Below, in pieces: positions 52,912-62,683 of a DNA stretch of 64,000 bases (the stretch's first letter is position 1; every line of letters begins with the position of its first letter). Below the pieces are notes generated by a model. It had not been told where the DNA came from. It did no database searches and worked only from the letters and a program-made list of their open reading frames with translations. The position numbers were made by a program, and so were the translations under genes. Source of the stretch: Rhodospirillaceae bacterium (GTDB lineage Bacteria > Pseudomonadota > Alphaproteobacteria > Rhodospirillales > Rhodospirillaceae); contig SHWP01000005.1 of NCBI GenBank assembly GCA_009693785.1, forward strand, positions 1 to 64,000, read 5' to 3'.

Positions 52912-55893
52912 TTACTCCGCCGCCATTTTTCCGATTTTAGCGATGCGGCGGAACGGCTGTGGAATTTGCGCGGGCGGTGTGATCAACGCCCACTCCACCA
53001 CTTGATTTTGTTCTTTCACGTGAGTGCGCATCAGGCCCGTGGCTGGTGATGCGACAGGCGAACGGCCTGCGAAAATCGGCCGCTTGGATTTCACATCTAA
53101 ACCTTCCAGCGCGTATTCGATGCGCCGGTCGACGAAAGTCCAATAGCCCATGTTGGCGGGCTCTTCCTGGCACCACACCACTTCGGCGTTTTTGTACTTG
53201 GCCAGTTCCTTGGCGATAGTTTCCTTGGGCCAGGGATAGAGCTGCTCGACGCGGATGATGGCCACATCGTCAATTGCTTTGTCTTCACGCGCTTGGAGCA
53301 GGTCGTAATAGACCTTGCCCGTGCACAACACGACGCGGCGGACCTTTGCGGGGGCAGCGATGGTGCCGGTTTCACCGATCACGCGCAGGAAGCGGCTGTT
53401 AGGGCCTAAGTCGTCAAGCGTCGAGACGCAGCGCTTGTGGCGCAGCAACGATTTGGGTTCAAAGATGATCAGCGGTTTGCGGAAATTACGGCGGATTTGA
53501 CGGCGCAGGCCATGAAACAAATTTGCGGGTGTGGTAAAATTACAAACTTGCCAATTATCCTGCGCTGAGAGCTGCAAAAAACGCTCGGGCCGCGCCGAGG
53601 AGTGCTCGGGGCCTTGGCCCTCATAACCGTGCGGCAGCAGCATGACCAAGCCCGACAGACGCAGCCATTTGCTTTCGGCTGAGTTGATGAATTGATCGAT
53701 GATCATTTGGGCAGCGTTGGAGAAATCGCCGAACTGGGCTTCCCACAAGGTCAGGCTATTGGGTTCGGCCAGCGAGTAGCCGTACTCGAAGCCCAGCAAT
53801 GACAACTCCGACAGGGGGCTATCCAGCACCTCGAAGCGGGCTTGTTTGCCTGGGCGGATATTATTGAGCGGCACATAGCGGTCGTCGGTTTTTTGGTCGA
53901 CCAGCACTGAATGACGTTGCGAGAACGTGCCGCGGCCGCAGTCTTGGCCCGAGAGGCGCACATTGGTGCCTTCGACCAGCAGCGTGCCATAGGCCAAGGC
54001 TTCGGCCGTGGCCCAGTCGATATCTTTACCGGTGTCGATGGCCTCGCGCTTGGCTTTCAGTTGGCGCACGATCTTGCTGTTGACGGTCACGCCATCGGGG
54101 TTGGCTGAGATCGCGTGGCCAACCTCGCGCAACGCGTCTAACGCGCTGCCGGTTGCCTCGTCGCGGAATTCTTCTTCCTCACCCATGGAGGCCATGCCTT
54201 TCCAGGCACCTTCCAGCCAATCGGCCTTGTTGGGCTTGTAGCCAGATGCGGCCTCGAAATCGGCCTCCATCATGTGCATGAAGTTGCTCATCGTGCGGTC
54301 GGCTTCGGCTTGGGTATAAAGACCTTCCTTTACAAGGCGCTGGGCATAAAGCGAGCGAGCGGTGGGGTGATCCTCGATTTTTTGATACATCAAGGGTTGG
54401 GTGAACTTTGGCTCGTCGCCCTCGTTGTGGCCAAAGCGGCGATAGCAAATCATGTCGAGCACAACGTCGCCGCCGAACTCTTGCCGGTATTCAGTGGCCA
54501 TACGCGCGCAATGCACCACGGCCTCGGGGTCGTCGGCGTTGGCATGGAAAATCGGCGCCTCGACCATTTTGGCGATATCGGTGCAATACAGCCCCGAACG
54601 TGAGTAGCGCGGCGTTGTGGTGAAGCCGATTTGATTGTTGACGACGACGTGAATGGTGCCGCCGGTGGTGTACCCATCAATCTGCGAAAAACCGAAACAC
54701 TCGGCGATGATGCCTTGGCCCGCGAAGGCCGCATCACCGTGCATGAGCAGTGCCAGCACTTGTTTGCGCGCCGTATCGCCGATTTGGTCTTGCTTGGCGC
54801 GCACTTTGCCCAGCACGACGGGGTCGACCACTTCAAGGTGCGAGGGGTTGGCCGTGAGCGACAAGTGAACCGTATTGCCATCGAAGGCGCGGTCCGAGGA
54901 CGTGCCCAAGTGATACTTCACGTCGCCCGACCCTTCGACGCTGTCGGGGTTGGGTGAGTTGCCTTGGAATTCCGAGAACAAGGCGCTGAAGGGTTTGTGC
55001 ATGACGTTGACCAGCACATTGAGCCGCCCACGGTGAGGCATGCCGATCACGACTTGCTTTACGCCCAACGCACTGCCGCGCTTGAGGATTTGTTCCAACG
55101 CCGGAATCAAGGCCTCGCCGCCATCGACACCGAAACGTTTCGTACCGGTGTATTTGATACCCAAGAATTTTTCGAAACCCTCGGCATCGGTCATGCGCTC
55201 AAGGATGGCTTTTTTACCCTCGGGCGAGAACGTAGGCTGATTGCGGTTGGGCTCGATGCGCTTTTGCAGCCATTCGCGCTGCTTGATGTCTTGCACATGC
55301 ATGTACTCGATGCCGATTGTGCCGCAGTAGGTTTGCTTCAGGGCATCGAGCAGTTGGCGCAGTGTGGCCTTCTCGAAGCCCATGACGCCGCCCAACACGA
55401 TTTCGCGATCAAGATCGGCATCAGTAAAGCCGTGGTAGCCAATGTCGAGTTCGGGGTGCGATTTATTGCGGTTGAGTTTCAACGGGTCGAGGTCGGCCAA
55501 TTGGTGGCCGGTGGTGCGGTATGCCCGTACCAGGGCCAAAGCCTTGATCGAATCTTGAGCCTGACGCATGACGGCGGCTTGATCAGCGGCGGGGGCAGCA
55601 CCAGCCGCAGCCGGAGCCTTCGCGCCCTTATCCTTGCCCTTGGCCGGAGCCGCGTCGGGATCGGGCACGCCAATGATGCCAGTTTGGCTTTGTGTCCAAC
55701 TGGCGCCTTGAAGTTCGCGCACCAGCTCGGCGCGGTCATCTCCCATCTCGCGGAAGAAGGCGGCCCAACTCGGGTCAATCGCACCCGGGTTTTTCAAGTA
55801 TTGGTCGTATAGTTCGGCAAGAAAAACGGCGTTAGCGCCGGATAAAAACGTTGTATCCACGGTTGGCTTCCCTCGTGTCGCGGTCTTGACCAT
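52912..55893 (-). CDS. sucA: 2-oxoglutarate dehydrogenase E1 component
   Basis: A 993-residue thiamine-diphosphate enzyme, full length for OdhA/SucA. The N-terminal segment (FLSGANAVFLAELYDQY and SWAAFF) binds E2. An Ala/Lys/Gly linker lies near 75-95. The TPP domain shows HGDAAFAGQGIIAECFGFS and HVVVNNQIGFTT, and the C-terminal domain includes LLPHGYEGQGPEHSSARPERFLQL, here cited only to locate it. It catalyses the first step from 2-oxoglutarate to succinyl-CoA. Upstream lie a palindrome and a candidate promoter. Confidence 0.98.
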   Translation of the reverse strand: MVKTATRGKPTVDTTFLSGANAVFLAELYDQYLKNPGAIDPSWAAFFREMGDDRAELVRELQGASWTQSQTGIIGVPDPDAAPAKGKDKGAKAPAAAGAAPAADQAAVMRQAQDSIKALALVRAYRTTGHQLADLDPLKLNRNKSHPELDIGYHGFTDADLDREIVLGGVMGFEKATLRQLLDALKQTYCGTIGIEYMHVQDIKQREWLQKRIEPNRNQPTFSPEGKKAILERMTDAEGFEKFLGIKYTGTKRFGVDGGEALIPALEQILKRGSALGVKQVVIGMPHRGRLNVLVNVMHKPFSALFSEFQGNSPNPDSVEGSGDVKYHLGTSSDRAFDGNTVHLSLTANPSHLEVVDPVVLGKVRAKQDQIGDTARKQVLALLMHGDAAFAGQGIIAECFGFSQIDGYTTGGTIHVVVNNQIGFTTTPRYSRSGLYCTDIAKMVEAPIFHANADDPEAVVHCARMATEYRQEFGGDVVLDMICYRRFGHNEGDEPKFTQPLMYQKIEDHPTARSLYAQRLVKEGLYTQAEADRTMSNFMHMMEADFEAASGYKPNKADWLEGAWKGMASMGEEEEFRDEATGSALDALREVGHAISANPDGVTVNSKIVRQLKAKREAIDTGKDIDWATAEALAYGTLLVEGTNVRLSGQDCGRGTFSQRHSVLVDQKTDDRYVPLNNIRPGKQARFEVLDSPLSELSLLGFEYGYSLAEPNSLTLWEAQFGDFSNAAQMIIDQFINSAESKWLRLSGLVMLLPHGYEGQGPEHSSARPERFLQLSAQDNWQVCNFTTPANLFHGLRRQIRRNFRKPLIIFEPKSLLRHKRCVSTLDDLGPNSRFLRVIGETGTIAAPAKVRRVVLCTGKVYYDLLQAREDKAIDDVAIIRVEQLYPWPKETIAKELAKYKNAEVVWCQEEPANMGYWTFVDRRIEYALEGLDVKSKRPIFAGRSPVASPATGLMRTHVKEQNQVVEWALITPPAQIPQPFRRIAKIGKMAAE

Positions 55894-55928
55894 CCATCCC
55901 CACCGACGGGGCGGCCGCGTGAGGCTTA

Positions 55929-55957
55929 GCCATAGCCCAATCTTGTCCCGGCGACAA
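55929..55957 (-). promoter_or_regulatory. candidate sucA promoter
   Basis: On the minus strand, TTGTCG (55952-55957) and TATGGC (55929-55934) are 17 bases apart, 36 bases before the sucA start. Both boxes are imperfect. Confidence 0.38.
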
Positions 55958-55983
55958 CGCGCTTAGACCCCCTAAATGGGGTT

Positions 55984-55998
55984 AAATCACAGTGATTT
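55984..55998. promoter_or_regulatory. 15-base palindrome upstream of sucA
   Basis: AAATCAC-A-GTGATTT is a perfect 7-base inverted repeat with one central base. It lies between the isochorismatase-family gene and sucA, just upstream of the candidate sucA promoter. Its symmetry and A/T-rich arms suggest a dimeric regulator site, but no regulator can be named. Confidence 0.4.
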
Positions 55999-56024
55999 CA
56001 GGGTGATAGCCTGGGGATAAAGGG

Positions 56025-56684
56025 CTAATTGGCAGCTTTGGACCCGGCTGCGATTTTCTCGATCATCCGCTCGACTGTGATGACCTGGCCAAAGGCAAAT
56101 TCCATGGTGGCCAGGACGGCCGCCTTGACCTGATCGGCGGTGAGGTTGGCCATGCCCCGGTTGCCGGTGCCATCGCTGAGAAAGAAGACTTTGTAATCGC
56201 GCATGTTGGCCTCGCGCGCGGTGGTATCGCAGCACACATTGGTCGCAATGCCGCCGATGATAACCGTGTCGATACCCTTCGAGCGCAAGATGAGATCAAG
56301 GTCGGTGCCGGTGAAGGCACCGTAACGCGGCTTGATGAGAATTATGTCGGTAGGTTCGACATTCAGGCGCGGAGATAATTTTACCGCGTCCGAACCCGCC
56401 TTGATTCCATCAACCTTGTTAAAAGGGGGCTCCATGTTGTGGCTTTTCATGTAACTCAGCACCACATCCGAAGCGATGCCGCGATTGGATTGATCGGCAC
56501 GCGTCTCCTGCGCAGTGTGAATCACCAGGATGCCAGCCTTGCGGCAGGCAGCCGCCAAGCGGTTGGCTTGGGCGACCACTTCGACACCATTGGGTGAAGA
56601 GATGGAATAACCTTCCACAAAAACATTTTGCAGATCGATGTTGAGATAAGCCGTCTTTTTCGGATCTACGGTCCAGTCGATCAT
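56025..56684 (-). CDS. isochorismatase-family cysteine hydrolase
   Basis: A 219-residue cysteine hydrolase of the isochorismatase/nicotinamidase-like superfamily. The catalytic triad is Asp17 (YLNIDLQN), Lys118 (ILIKPRYG) and Cys151 (ATNVCCD), with the usual cis-peptide at GGIATN. The superfamily includes nicotinamidases, N-carbamoyl hydrolases and biuret hydrolases; no substrate can be fixed. It lies in the TCA cluster but has no apparent role in that pathway. Confidence 0.9.
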   Translation of the reverse strand: MIDWTVDPKKTAYLNIDLQNVFVEGYSISSPNGVEVVAQANRLAAACRKAGILVIHTAQETRADQSNRGIASDVVLSYMKSHNMEPPFNKVDGIKAGSDAVKLSPRLNVEPTDIILIKPRYGAFTGTDLDLILRSKGIDTVIIGGIATNVCCDTTAREANMRDYKVFFLSDGTGNRGMANLTADQVKAAVLATMEFAFGQVITVERMIEKIAAGSKAAN

Positions 56685-56726
56685 GGTTGTGCAATCCTAA
56701 AATGTATGGGGGGCGAACATTGCCCG

Positions 56727-56776
56727 CCCTCCTCATCCCTCTCCCCCCAAGAACGGGGGGAGAGGGATGAGGAGGG
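56727..56776. repeat. perfect 22-base inverted repeat
   Basis: Left arm 56727-56748 (CCCTCCTCATCCCTCTCCCC then CC) and right arm 56755-56776 are exact complements with a 6-base loop. On either strand this would form a very stable hairpin with no T run after it, so it is more like a repeated element or RNA-stability structure than a simple terminator. A second imperfect palindrome, CGCGGC...GCCGCG, follows at about 56781-56798. Confidence 0.85.
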
Positions 56777-56841
56777 TTGGCGCGGCCATCGAGCCGCGCC
56801 CTACCCGGAGCTGGGTGAGGGGTGGATGATCCACGCATGGG

Positions 56842-57258
56842 TTACGTTTCCACGTCATCGACATCGACTTGGCCTGAGATGCGCCGGCGGAACAGCGAGA
56901 ATGACATGCCGATGGCGAGAATAAGCGACAGCACCACGAGAATGATCCAGGTGAAAATGCTGCCCTGACCTAACACCAGTAGACCAAAATCCACCAGCAC
57001 CCAAATCAACGCGCCAAAAAAGGCTGCCGCCAGAACCAGCCCGATGGGCCCAATCGAGAACCATGTGGCGCGTAGGTAAATGATGATGACTATCAACAGC
57101 ACAACGCCAACAAGGGCTTTGAGCGGCAGCATGCCTTCGGCGCCGGTGACCCAACTGTAATAAGAGTAATCGGTGGGGTTAAATGTGCCGAGCACGACCA
57201 CCAGCGCCAAAATCCAGCGCCACAGAAACCCTTCCCACGTGATCGCAGCTTTTGCCAT
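56842..57258 (-). CDS. small polytopic membrane protein, DUF6524-like
   Basis: A 138-residue protein with four hydrophobic segments, about 13-25, 44-62, 70-94 and 100-122, and the motif FNPTDYSYYSWV near 26-37. That motif and layout resemble DUF6524 proteins (tentative). Function is unknown. It sits between the methyltransferase and isochorismatase genes. Confidence 0.75.
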   Translation of the reverse strand: MAKAAITWEGFLWRWILALVVVLGTFNPTDYSYYSWVTGAEGMLPLKALVGVVLLIVIIIYLRATWFSIGPIGLVLAAAFFGALIWVLVDFGLLVLGQGSIFTWIILVVLSLILAIGMSFSLFRRRISGQVDVDDVET

Positions 57259-57347
57259 GACGTCCCCCAGTTCTATAGGCCCCGAATTGAATGGCCCCGC
57301 ACCGCCGCGAGATTAGCAACTCAGTGAACCAAACCAAAGGGCTGGGT

Positions 57348-58904
57348 TCAGGCGATTCCGACTAAATCGATCCGCGCGCCCTTACGGTCGTGGACCACCC
57401 GCAGCGTCACCTGCTGACCTTTGGTGACCTTTTGGGGAGCGACAAAAGGATATAACAGCGGCGTCCAATGCGGCGTGCGGGTGGCCTTGGCGCCTGCGGG
57501 CGGGTTTTCATATACCGAGGTCTCATCAAGATCGAGGCGCAGCCACTGCACGACTCCCTGACATAGTCCGCTTTGCGTCACCTCCACCGCGAAGGTACTG
57601 TCGCCCGGAGGAAAGAACCCTTCGTTTTGAAAATCGAATTGGAACAGGTCGGCGGGTTCCGACAGCCAATTGAGTTGCGTGTTAGGCACATCGAGATTCA
57701 TCAGGGGCGGCGTATAGCCGTTAAACACCGAGAGGTCGAAGCCCTCGACCGTCGCGACACGGGTAAGCTGCGCCAGCGGCGTGCTCTCCACCAGGGCGCC
57801 GACCATGGTGGCTTGAGCGGGAATGACGATGCCATTGGGTTTGAGCAGCCGGGCCTTAGCATCCTCGATAGAGGGAATGACATCTTCCGACAAAACTTGG
57901 GCCGAGAAAATCTCCGCGATCAGAACATCCGCGGCCCTCGGCAGATCAACGCCGACTTTTACATCCCACGAATATTTTTCGATGACGGTGATTTTATTCG
58001 ACAATCCATTTGCTGCGATAGTCTTGCGCGCCACCGCAGCGATGGCCGGATTAAACTCACAGGTGATGACGCGCGCGCCAGTGCGCGCGGCCATCATGGC
58101 GAGCAACCCCGCGCCAGTGCCGATTTCCAGGACCAAATGATTCGGTTTGACTTGCCGTTCGATCACCGCGCGAAAAGCGGTGTTGCGCGGCGCATCGTTC
58201 ATCATGTTGAAGTGCCAGGCGGGGGTCATTTCGCTGCGAATCACGCGCGCCATGTAGCGCACATCAGGATCTTCAGGCGCCAGTTTGGCGGCCTGTTCGA
58301 TGCAGCGCCATGCGCCCGCCAAATCTCCGAGTTTGCGCCGCGTGCTTGACGCCCCTTCCCAAGCGACAATATCCGATGGCTCGGCAGCGCAGGCCCGGTC
58401 GAAATAATCGCGCGCATCACCGGTGCGATCTAGCGAACCCAATGCAGTGGCAGCCGCCCGCAAGGCATAAACATTGTTCGGCTGCGATTGCAGGAGATGC
58501 TGCGATGCGGCAAGCGATTCATCCCACGCCCCGCGCCTGGCTTCGCACAACGCCAGATCAAGATGCGCCGAGGTTTGATCGGTCGCGCCATCGGCGATGG
58601 CCCGGCGCAGGTTTTCGACGGCTGTATCCAGCTCGCCCAAATCCAGTTGAATACGGCCCAACAGATGGCGGTAGTCGCCATTGGCGGGCATCAAATCAAC
58701 GGAGGCTGTGGCGTAGTTCAACGCTGCGTCAAAATCTCCGCGCGCCACCATAAGCAATGCCAACAGCCTCATTGCCTCGGTGTTTTTGTGCTCGGCGGCG
58801 AGCACGCCAAGGTAGCATTCCTCGGCCTCGGCGGTGCGGCCTGCTTGATGGTGCGACACGCCGACATTTAATAGCTCGGCGGTGGTCATGATGATCTCGG
58901 TCAT
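57348..58904 (-). CDS. TPR protein with PRMT-like methyltransferase domain
   Basis: A 518-residue protein with two parts. Residues about 8-215 are tandem TPR-like helices (repeated LLGR/LDLA/W...A patterns). Residues about 225-518 form a SAM-dependent methyltransferase. The SAM loop is LEIGTGAGLL (259-268), with CEFNP (Glu283) for ribose binding. Two Glu, E331 and E340, sit 9 apart in AEIFSAQVLSED, matching the double-E loop of protein arginine methyltransferases, and HW at 479-480 (TPHWTPLLY) matches their THW loop. The C-terminal beta-barrel also fits PRMTs. Animal PRMT9 has TPRs too. The target is unknown. ATG 58904 is used because the longer frame overlaps the MBL gene. Confidence 0.85.
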   Translation of the reverse strand: MTEIIMTTAELLNVGVSHHQAGRTAEAEECYLGVLAAEHKNTEAMRLLALLMVARGDFDAALNYATASVDLMPANGDYRHLLGRIQLDLGELDTAVENLRRAIADGATDQTSAHLDLALCEARRGAWDESLAASQHLLQSQPNNVYALRAAATALGSLDRTGDARDYFDRACAAEPSDIVAWEGASSTRRKLGDLAGAWRCIEQAAKLAPEDPDVRYMARVIRSEMTPAWHFNMMNDAPRNTAFRAVIERQVKPNHLVLEIGTGAGLLAMMAARTGARVITCEFNPAIAAVARKTIAANGLSNKITVIEKYSWDVKVGVDLPRAADVLIAEIFSAQVLSEDVIPSIEDAKARLLKPNGIVIPAQATMVGALVESTPLAQLTRVATVEGFDLSVFNGYTPPLMNLDVPNTQLNWLSEPADLFQFDFQNEGFFPPGDSTFAVEVTQSGLCQGVVQWLRLDLDETSVYENPPAGAKATRTPHWTPLLYPFVAPQKVTKGQQVTLRVVHDRKGARIDLVGIA

Positions 58905-58920
58905 GGCCCGATTTAGCCTA

Positions 58921-59796
58921 TTACGATGCGGTATTAAACCAAAACCCGTTGGTTTGGCTGGTGACGCGCACAGCGCATGGCGGGGCGAAATGCGCGGGGA
59001 TGATCCAAGCCCCCGTGTCGGCCACTTCGCCCAGAAACTTGGCACGCGTCAGGCGCGATTGATTGGCGTCCCAGCAAAAGCGGCTCGACCAATTGGGCCG
59101 CTCGATTTGCACGGGATGGTGAATGGTATCGCCCACCAAATAGGCGCGCTGTTTGCCATCATCGAGCACCAGCACGATATTGCCGGGCGTATGCCCGGGC
59201 GCGGGCTGAAGGCGCACACCCGGCTCGATCTCGAAATCTCCCGCAACGATTAGGGCTTGTTTGGCATCTAAAATCGGCTGCACCGAATCATCCCAAAACC
59301 TGTGCCGGGTATTGGCATCGGCGGTGCGCTGGGCGTGATCGGCATGCTCGAATTCCTTGGCGTGCATTACGTACTTGGCGTTGGGGAACGTCGGCACCCA
59401 GCGGCCATTGAGCAGCTTCGTATTCCAGCCCACATGATCGGCATGCAAGTGCGTGCACAGCACATGGGTGATGGCTTCTGGGGTTAGACCCACGGCGGCG
59501 AGATTTTTAAGATATTGGCCGTCGGTGCGTTGGTGCCAATCGGGCAGCGTTGGGCGCTCCTTGTGATTGCCAACGCAAGTGTCCACCAGAATGACATTGC
59601 GCTCGGTGCGCACGATCAGGCTGTGGAACGACATGATCAGCTGCTTGCCCGCCACATCGACAAAGCGCGCATCACGCGACACTTTGGTTTCGGCGAAAGC
59701 CTCGGGCGTGGCGTCGGGAAACAGGAAATCGGGCGCGCGGAAGGGCCCCTCCATGTCGACGATGCGGGTGATGGCGAACGGACCGGGCAGCTTCAT
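58921..59796 (-). CDS. MBL-fold metallo-hydrolase
   Basis: A 291-residue metallo-beta-lactamase-fold hydrolase. The metal site THLHADHVG gives His116, His118, Asp120 and His121, and GHTPGNIVLVL supplies a further His. The N-terminus (RIVDMEGPFRAPDFLF) and the HSLIVRTERNVILVDTC strand resemble quorum-quenching and alkylsulfatase-type MBL proteins, but the substrate cannot be assigned. It starts 13 bases after the PagL-like gene. Confidence 0.9.
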   Translation of the reverse strand: MKLPGPFAITRIVDMEGPFRAPDFLFPDATPEAFAETKVSRDARFVDVAGKQLIMSFHSLIVRTERNVILVDTCVGNHKERPTLPDWHQRTDGQYLKNLAAVGLTPEAITHVLCTHLHADHVGWNTKLLNGRWVPTFPNAKYVMHAKEFEHADHAQRTADANTRHRFWDDSVQPILDAKQALIVAGDFEIEPGVRLQPAPGHTPGNIVLVLDDGKQRAYLVGDTIHHPVQIERPNWSSRFCWDANQSRLTRAKFLGEVADTGAWIIPAHFAPPCAVRVTSQTNGFWFNTAS

Positions 59797-59809
59797 GCGA
59801 ACCTCAGAG

Positions 59810-60331
59810 TTAAAATTCCCAACCGACGGTGCCCATCAAAATATTAGTGCCGCGATTTTTTTTGTGCAGCACCTGAGCATTTGACACGTGCGTCAAGCCA
59901 AGCCCGGCGCGCACGCCCCTGATCACGCGCACGGAGCCTTGAAGGCCCAAATGAAACTGCGCGGTGCCGCCTAGGAATGTGCTGTCGCCCTGACGATAGG
60001 CAGCGATGCCTGCCGAGGGTTCAAATTCAAACAGCCCATTGCCCCATTGCAGCGGCAAGGCGAACCCCGCAAAGACCAAGCCGCCTTTATCAGCATTGAT
60101 AAAACCGCCAATCAGCGGCTTGAGGCCTAAGAATTTTCCACCCAGCGCCTTGCCGCCGCCAAAGCCATCGGCGAAGCGGTACTGCACATGCGCGGCTGCG
60201 GATTTTTTATCGTTGGGGATAATATCGTACTGGCCAATACCAACCGTTAGCACCGCCTTGTCGGCGGCCATCACCGATGTTGCGCCGAGCCAAGCCGCAA
60301 GGCCAAGAACAAACCCCGCGACGAGCCGCAC
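59810..60331 (-). CDS. PagL-like lipid A deacylase (acyloxyacyl hydrolase)
   Basis: A 173-residue outer-membrane beta-barrel with a signal peptide (about 1-22, cut at AA). The C-terminus ends in Phe, as in many barrels. The PagL signature appears as LTHVSNAQV, with His148 and Ser150 as the likely catalytic pair. The Glu expected 12 residues after the Ser is not at that place (GTN at 161-163), so activity is uncertain. PagL removes a fatty acid from lipid A and can tune endotoxicity and envelope strength. It is translated just after sucD. Confidence 0.85.
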   Translation of the reverse strand: MRLVAGFVLGLAAWLGATSVMAADKAVLTVGIGQYDIIPNDKKSAAAHVQYRFADGFGGGKALGGKFLGLKPLIGGFINADKGGLVFAGFALPLQWGNGLFEFEPSAGIAAYRQGDSTFLGGTAQFHLGLQGSVRVIRGVRAGLGLTHVSNAQVLHKKNRGTNILMGTVGWEF

Positions 60332-60336
60332 GATGC

Positions 60337-61211
60337 TTAGCCCTTCATCGCCTTCAGCATGGTTTGGCCCAGCGATGCGGGCGAGTCGGCAATATGGAAC
60401 CCGGCCGCGCGCATCGCCTCGAATTTCGCCGCCGCCGTGCCCTTGCCGCCCGAGATGATAGCACCCGCGTGGCCCATGCGACGTCCGGGGGGCGCGGTCA
60501 CGCCCGCCACGAACCCGACGATGGGCTTTTTCTTCTTCGCGCGCATATAAAACTCAGCCGCATCTTCTTCCGCCGTGCCGCCGATTTCACCGATCATGAT
60601 GATGCCTTGGGTAGCGTCATCGCCCAAGAACAAGTCGAGGCAATCGATAAAGTTGGTGCCATTCACCGGATCTCCACCAATGCCGATACACGTGGTTTGG
60701 CCCAAGCCCGTGGCGGTGGTTTGCGCCACGGCTTCGTACGTCAGCGTGCCAGAGCGTGAGACAATGCCGATTTTGCCTTTTTGGTGAATGTGACCGGGCA
60801 TGATGCCGATTTTGCATTCACCCGGTGTGATGATGCCCGGGCAATTGGGTCCGATAAGACGCGTTTTGGAACCAGCCAGCGCGCGCTTGACGCGCACCAT
60901 GTCGAGCACCGGAATGCCCTCGGTGATGCACACCACTAATGGAATTTCGGCGTCAATGGCCTCTAAAATCGCGTCCGCCGCGAACGGTGGCGGCACATAA
61001 ATCGCCGAGGCATCGCAGCCCGTGGCTTTGCGAGCGTCCGCCACGGTGTCGAACACCGGCAGATCGAGGTGCGTGGTGCCGCCTTTGCCAGGCGTCACAC
61101 CGCCAACCATTTTGGTGCCGTAAGCAATGGCTTGTTCGGAATGGAACGTGCCTTGGCTGCCGGTGAAGCCCTGGCAGATGACCTTGGTATTCTTACCAAC
61201 GAGAACAGACA

Positions 61212-61212
<1 letters not shown>
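60337..61212 (-). CDS. sucD: succinyl-CoA ligase subunit alpha
   Basis: The 291-residue alpha subunit. The N-terminus [21 protein letters not shown] binds CoA, and the phosphorylated His lies in [10 protein letters not shown] (His248). It overlaps the sucC stop in TAATG, so subunits are made in step. It forms GTP/ATP from succinyl-CoA in the TCA cycle. Confidence 0.98.
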
Positions 61213-62411
<1,199 letters not shown>

Positions 62412-62569
62412 GCGAGTCCCCCTTGTCCGGGCCTTGAGCCATCCCCTGGCCTGGGCCGGATGATCCATGCCCGGATGAGATCGGGGCCAGATCGTTTAAG
62501 CGTGAGCATTTATAGCATCGCTTGAGGGGGGTGCAACCGCACCGGCTCGGACCAAATGCAAAAAAAGTA

Positions 62570-62683
62570 AAGGCCCGGAAGGGGTTAGCCGCATTTTCCA
62601 GCGAAGCCCCCTATGCTTCGCCAAGGAAAATGCAAAATTAAGAGAAATCTGGAACGCGGAAGCGTTCCAGAGGGCCGGGCCTT
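62570..62683 (-). terminator. cloverleaf palindrome with T run between mdh and sucC
   Basis: On the minus strand (mRNA sense) the outer stem AAGGCCCGG (62675-62683) pairs with CCGGGCCTT (62570-62578). It encloses two hairpins: CTGGAACGC/GCGTTCCAG (62649-62670) and GCATTTTCC/GGAAAATGC (62591-62633) capped by an inner GCGAAGC/GCTTCGC stem. Just after the outer stem come TTTAC and seven T. A GC-rich stem followed by a T run is the form of a Rho-independent terminator or attenuator. It could end the mdh transcript, reduce flow into sucCD, or be a repeated mobile palindrome. All pairings are read from the sequence; function is inferred. Confidence 0.72.

Follow-up and report, generated by a model that had tools for sequence, protein, structure and literature searches.

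Positions 57348-58904 of the window, the whole stretch of 64,000 nucleotides analysed here, coincide exactly with a single minus-strand open frame, which runs from an ATG at 58904 to a stop at 57348-57350 and encodes 518 amino acids (coding sequence 57351-58904), as evident from the ORF list and the translation. The plus-strand frame across the same interval is interrupted by stops, and the longest other plus-strand ORF listed within it comprises 258 amino acids. The true start may be the Met at codon 6 (first base 58889), the second in the frame, since it gives, by eye, a better fit to the N-termini of the relatives L004 and L005. The product carries tetratricopeptide repeats (TPRs) followed by a catalytic module of the protein arginine methyltransferase (PRMT) type, and is referred to as TPR-PRMT.

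The gene is part of a same-direction run that reads mdh - sucC - sucD - PagL-like - metallo-β-lactamase fold - TPR-PRMT - DUF6524 - isochorismatase fold - sucA - sucB, in which the suc and mdh names come from reading the sequences and the four other neighbours were named by Pfam. A metallo-β-lactamase-fold hydrolase (58921-59796, minus strand; PF00753) ends 16 bases before the PRMT start and is preceded by a PagL-like protein of the lipid A 3-O-deacylase family (59810-60331, minus strand; PF09411), and both occupy the same place in L001-L004 and L007. The downstream DUF6524 protein (56842-57258, minus strand; PF20134) is at the same place in L001-L003, and no DUF6524 match was obtained at the L004 locus. 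Together with the TPR-PRMT and isochorismatase-fold genes, they make up a five-gene block (56025-60331) between sucCD and sucAB. The TPR-PRMT gene stays between sucD and sucA in L001-L004, with four or all five block members kept; L007, which ends at a contig end, has the upstream half of the block, and none of the window's neighbours was matched at the L005 locus. The TPR-PRMTs of L001-L004 are 54-59% identical to that of the window as compared to 69-97% for the neighbours (60% for the PagL-like protein of L003), which indicates that the TPR-PRMT evolves faster than its surroundings.

The gaps from sucD through the PagL-like and metallo-β-lactamase-fold genes to the TPR-PRMT are only 5, 13 and 16 bases, and sucD to TPR-PRMT are therefore likely to lie on one transcript. 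A consensus scan of 55800-62600 revealed no promoter-like site on the strand of the gene. Terminator-like sites in this region number nine as compared to 8.0 in shuffles, and the one on the strand of the gene (60333-60316, where the PagL-like gene begins) would, if real, count against a single transcript.

The N-terminal part (residues 1-219; 58248-58904, minus strand) was delimited by Pfam and the structural model. Pfam detects TPRs in it (TPR_2, 5.1e-14), in about six units, and the model displays six helix pairs at residues 8-208 and a last helix at 213-226. This part is modelled at high confidence, with pLDDT blocks of 92-97 over residues 11-190, and matches the TPR domain of OGT with a VIA Z of 24.4 (223 residues aligned, rmsd 1.7).

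Residues 220-518 (57351-58247, minus strand) form the PRMT catalytic module as judged from Pfam, profile and models, in which a predicted SAM-binding Rossmann part is followed by a predicted PRMT β-barrel (PRMT_C) part. The class I methyltransferase recognized by Pfam begins near residue 247, and the PRMT_C profile of Pfam is below the cut-off for the protein alone (24.8 versus 27) and right at the cut-off in the genome search (27.0). A phmmer search with the whole protein gave mouse PRMT7 (3.1e-32), bovine PRMT9 (1.1e-28), T. brucei PRMT7 (5.9e-28) and PRMT3 (1.5e-13). A profile built from 11 catalytic modules of relatives gave mouse PRMT7 at 2.6e-80, PRMT9 at 9.4e-79 and 2.5e-76 and T. brucei PRMT7 at 1.5e-57, the values of mouse PRMT7 and both PRMT9 being sums over two modules and that of T. 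brucei PRMT7 coming from one; C. elegans PRMT7 (3e-52), PRMT3 (2.4e-46) and PRMT1 (about 8e-43) followed. The best single-module scores are 198 bits for T. brucei PRMT7, 190 and 188.5 for PRMT9, 181 for C. elegans PRMT7 and 173 for mouse PRMT7, as compared to 161.5 for PRMT3 and 150 for PRMT1, which suggests that, module versus module, the lead of PRMT7/9 over the type I enzymes is modest.

The module was also modelled alone (299 amino acids, pTM 0.77), and the first 17 Foldseek rows of this model are all PRMT7 or PRMT9 entries. Its VIA matches include T. brucei PRMT7 (4m36; Z 26.9, 278 aligned, rmsd 2.9), human PRMT9 (9ay9_D; 26.6, 279 aligned, rmsd 2.7), mouse PRMT7 (26.0, 290 aligned, rmsd 3.3), bovine PRMT9 (25.2) and C. 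elegans PRMT7 (24.7). Among the VIA matches listed, PRMT7/9 span 24.6-26.9 and other PRMTs 24.6-25.3; since Z differences under 1 are ties, the fold is that of a PRMT, and the structural lead of PRMT7/9 is modest. The module model is of low confidence in its own residues 1-15, 116-118, 162-180 and 182-189, and the full-length model (pTM 0.52) has pLDDT below 50 at residues 229-233, 334-352 and 369-409, both models having their weak spots at the WHF motif, in the double-E loop after its first Glu and in the presumed dimerisation arm. A preliminary description of this DNA had named a PRMT-type methyltransferase and proposed structure prediction against PRMT9 and PRMT7 as a check for some other fold. 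The phmmer and profile matches to PRMT7/9 agree with that assignment, as does the module model, which is best against PRMT7 and PRMT9 and for which 50 of the 50 VIA matches listed are PRMTs.

The residues expected of a PRMT pocket are conserved. The N-terminal PRMT motif WHFNMMNDAPRN (residues 230-241; 58182-58217, minus strand) contains M234, D237 and R240, which we take to correspond to M48, D51 and R54 of PRMT1, and the SAM-binding motif I, VLEIGTGAGLL, spans residues 258-268 (58101-58133, minus strand). The double-E loop (residues 331-340; 57885-57914, minus strand) holds E331 and E340 within AEIFSAQVLSED, the two Glu nine residues apart that had been described earlier, and the likewise described His-Trp is found as H479-W480 (57465-57470, minus strand) within TPHWTP, so that the THW-type loop reads PHW, with Pro in place of Thr. 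By their presumed roles in PRMT1 and PRMT7, the Glu pair holds the guanidinium, and the Arg and the post-I Glu bind SAM. H231, D237, R240, G262, G264, E283, E331 and W480 are invariant in the 59 family rows, and W230 and M234 nearly so (57 rows each). The position of E340 is Glu in 51 rows and Pro in 8, and that of H479 is His in 50, Gly in 6, Cys in 2 and Ser in 1. At every scored pocket or SAM position the window protein carries the commonest residue.

Pro at the second Glu is confined to L058, L064, L071, L072, L075 (for instance SELINIGMLAPRM), L077, L080 and L081, which form one subclade (support 100/100) and, judging from this replacement, may have a different substrate or be inactive. 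The residue before Trp is Gly in L046, L057, L060, L069, L088 and L103, Cys in L090 and L102 and Ser in L093; the first module of PRMT9 also has Cys at this His position of the THW-type loop.

The arrangement of TPRs before the enzyme, which the preliminary description had likened to animal PRMT9, was followed across the junction of the two parts. With the full-length model, Foldseek ranks bovine PRMT9 first (480 columns, E 1.5e-14, rmsd 10.7), the rmsd meaning that the two domains are not superposable as one body, and no PRMT is among the VIA matches listed for this model, because the TPR part fills that list. The phmmer alignment to bovine PRMT9 starts at residue 146, takes in the last TPRs and continues into the catalytic module. 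No gap is needed to align the last 84 residues before WHF, which show 19 identities and a score of 40, as compared to a mean of −83 (sd 18, best −15) in 5000 shuffles, a contrast that is generous because the alignment was the best pick of phmmer and TPRs are generally alike. Sliding the register by 1-6 residues lowers the score to −53 or less, and sliding it by one TPR unit (34 residues) gives 5 and −4, over 50 residues. Bacterial members display, by eye, a similar spacing of last TPR, linker and WHF and a TPR-to-WHF linker of near-constant length. The junction match to PRMT9 fits a single origin of the fusion between TPRs and enzyme, without amounting to proof. The likeness to PRMT9 thus holds for the TPRs, the junction and the full-length match; it does not extend to the number of modules, since the 518 residues contain a single catalytic module and no tandem second module of the PRMT9 kind, as against the two matched stretches in mouse PRMT7 and in PRMT9.

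As compared to the known systems, the protein shares with animal PRMT9 the TPR solenoid before the PRMT module, the WHFxMxNDxxRN motif, both Glu and the gapless junction register, whereas PRMT9 has a second module-like stretch and a Cys in place of the His in the THW-type loop. T. brucei PRMT7, the best structural match, also has one catalytic module and both Glu, but its solved chain gives no TPR match (query 225-467 only) and has Gln, not His, before Trp. The short bacterial PRMT homologues (L051, L099 and others) are PRMT-like, with the double-E in 14 of 14 rows including mouse PRMT2, but their N-terminal part is mostly short. L104, on a Pantoea dispersa plasmid, is bacterial and related to PRMTs by the tree, but has no room for TPRs ahead of its module and sits in an apparent biosynthetic cluster. 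Its locus (NZ_CP082345.1, 14072-26926) encodes a PF14518 protein with a weak cupin match, a Rieske protein, the PRMT-like methyltransferase, an MFS transporter and an ATP-grasp enzyme, and, on this gene content, is possibly an N-N bond natural-product cluster. The neighbours of L104 point to a kinship with SznE/StzE, also bacterial, which supplies SznF with N-omega-methyl-L-arginine in the streptozotocin pathway. Part of the text of PMC11705231 describes SznE/StzE as an arginine-guanidino methyltransferase working with, and ahead of, SznF/StzF. MidA/NDUFAF7 represents another arginine methylation with proteobacterial roots, and was set apart here by its description as unrelated to other PRMTs in part of the text of PMC9006661.

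By sequence, the window protein belongs to a broad family of bacterial TPR-PRMTs. At E ≤ 1e-30 the module profile matches in 20 of 248 genomes of the order, 50 of 385 of the class and 19 of 398 of the phylum; these samples overlap and take in the genome of the window, and some short homologues are among the matches counted. TPR profiles match at least 52 of the 58 members (TPR_14, 52/58) and PRMT_C matches 44 of 58. One relative (L006) comes from a Myxococcota MAG, and L104 from a plasmid. A Rhizobium has a member named after its TPRs, and the relative in Tistrella mobilis has a short N-terminal part. Ten plasmid matches were inspected by name: four are called '50S ribosomal protein L11 methyltransferase', one a tetratricopeptide repeat protein and three some other kind of methyltransferase; the remaining two lack a listed feature. 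Pfam PRMT_C occurs once in the window's own genome (86% complete) and in none of 14 well-known control genomes, and the phage search gave no match.

We propose that the protein works in the cytosol as a SAM-dependent arginine N-methyltransferase of the PRMT7/PRMT9 class, with a protein substrate chosen via the TPRs, and assign to this reading a probability of about 0.7. The Rossmann part would bind SAM, the guanidinium of an arginine side chain would be held by E331 and E340 in a pocket closed by H479-W480, and one of the terminal guanidino nitrogens would receive the methyl group. The TPR solenoid, set on its conserved linker, most likely selects a protein partner, and hence the substrate would be a protein. 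Monomethyl- or symmetric dimethylarginine, the products of PRMT7 and PRMT9, would most likely be formed.

The presence of TPRs suggests a macromolecular partner. A small-molecule substrate, with the enzyme acting as a guanidino N-methyltransferase on free L-arginine or a natural-product precursor in the manner of SznE/StzE, is improbable. It draws on L104, which belongs to the same clade and adjoins the PF14518 protein with the weak cupin match (24.3 bits, below the cut-off of 27.2) and the Rieske protein, a set called SznF-like here on what we take to be the domain make-up of SznF. However, a tblastn search with the Pantoea PF14518 protein at E ≤ 0.01 came up empty for the 64-kb window and for 49 other loci, as had an earlier ORF search, and the genome of the window has a single PF14518 match, on another contig, in a frame of 280 amino acids versus 465 for the Pantoea protein. 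In L104 the module also begins only about 16 residues after the first Met, in contrast to the TPR profile matches of most members. Because of the TPRs, and since the search revealed no SznF-like neighbour in the window, a protein substrate is the better bet; since the TPR-less Pantoea relative adjoins a SznF-type enzyme, small-molecule substrates may exist within the TPR-PRMT clade.

Neighbouring genes were compared in 49 loci (the window, L001-L005, L102-L104 and 40 others of about 7-17 kb). No conserved gene partner emerged across the 40 diverse loci, given a crude ORF picking that could miss a shared neighbour, and the neighbours therefore give no clue to the substrate. The widest shared cluster other than the TPR-PRMT gene, of 12 loci, was rejected as most likely wrong-frame ORFs: the ORF picker missed the TPR-PRMT gene in 13 loci, and in the 12 inspected (all but L102) it had picked a long opposite-strand ORF that overlies the gene. 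The next shared clusters comprise 6 loci (SDR-like by eye) and then the mdh-suc block of the close relatives. At two distant loci, L117 and L123, a gene 4 bases upstream of the TPR-PRMT appears, by eye, to encode a SpoU-type RNA 2'-O-methyltransferase.

A PRMT fold put to another job, either methylating a residue of proteins other than arginine or serving as an inactive TPR scaffold, is about as improbable. Some relatives do lack the second Glu (8/59) or the His (9/59), and the Pro in place of that Glu means that some members need not be arginine methyltransferases; however, both Glu and the His, Trp, Asp and Arg are intact in the window protein and in L001-L006. Scarcely credible is a ribosomal protein L11 methyltransferase (PrmA), the public name of some relatives, including the four plasmid matches: Pfam PrmA reaches 36 bits against a cut-off of 22 and all 58 members match it at E ≤ 0.001, but the profile is matched in part only (154-257 of 296), and PrmA identity was rejected on the NCBIfam prmA score (27.5 bits versus a cut-off of 183) and on the structure matches listed, which are PRMTs.

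The relation to the eukaryotic enzymes was analysed in a tree of 72 bacterial and 4 eukaryotic rows (mouse PRMT7, bovine PRMT9, T. brucei PRMT7 and mouse PRMT2, the last being the only eukaryotic type I PRMT in it). Incomplete genes (L007, L021, L022, L025, L049, L056, L096), L027, which has no module, and rows with a module score identical to that of an included one (L016-L020, L035-L040) were left out. The TPR-PRMTs together with mouse PRMT7, bovine PRMT9 and T. brucei PRMT7 form one clade of 63 rows (support 100/99), and mouse PRMT2 with 12 of the 13 short bacterial rows falls on the other side; the short group was defined by low profile score, and its member L094 lies in the TPR-PRMT clade, outside the 59 family rows. 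The split persists in a quick tree without eight long rows (SH-aLRT 98).

Within this clade the eukaryotic PRMT7/9 are drawn among the bacterial TPR-PRMTs, but a tree that keeps the 59 bacterial rows separate also survives the AU test (p 0.219). A tree that unites the four eukaryotic rows is narrowly rejected (p 0.046), the branches being long and the group chosen post hoc. It is conceivable, and we put it forward only tentatively, at less than even odds, that eukaryotic PRMT7 and PRMT9 derive from a proteobacterial TPR-PRMT, PRMT9 keeping the ancestral fusion and PRMT7 having lost the TPRs, with PRMT1-type enzymes going with other, TPR-less bacterial relatives. If true, the protein arginine methylation system of eukaryotes would in part come from a working one that bacteria possess.

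Most known PRMTs are eukaryotic, and predicted PRMTs have already been reported in Legionella, according to part of the text of PMC10117894. The preliminary description had regarded arginine methylation in bacteria as little studied. Among the papers listed by the literature searches (titles and abstract starts, with few subscription journals covered), none deals with a bacterial TPR-PRMT. The protein itself, coming from a broad family, is not an oddity. Its fold is a known one, and the bacterial form, as far as those papers go, seems unstudied. The family shares the architecture of PRMT9 and keeps the pocket residues intact, and its members are sometimes named PrmA. As a simple single-module enzyme, it lends itself to asking about the substrates of bacterial PRMTs, the role of the TPRs in PRMT9 and the origin of PRMT7/9, and could make bacterial arginine methylation testable.

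The short bacterial PRMT homologues L051, L052, L053, L054 and L099, on the PRMT2 side of the tree, make up a second bacterial PRMT type, of which L051 is nearest to PRMT2 (phmmer 4.3e-25), PRMT6 and PRMT10.
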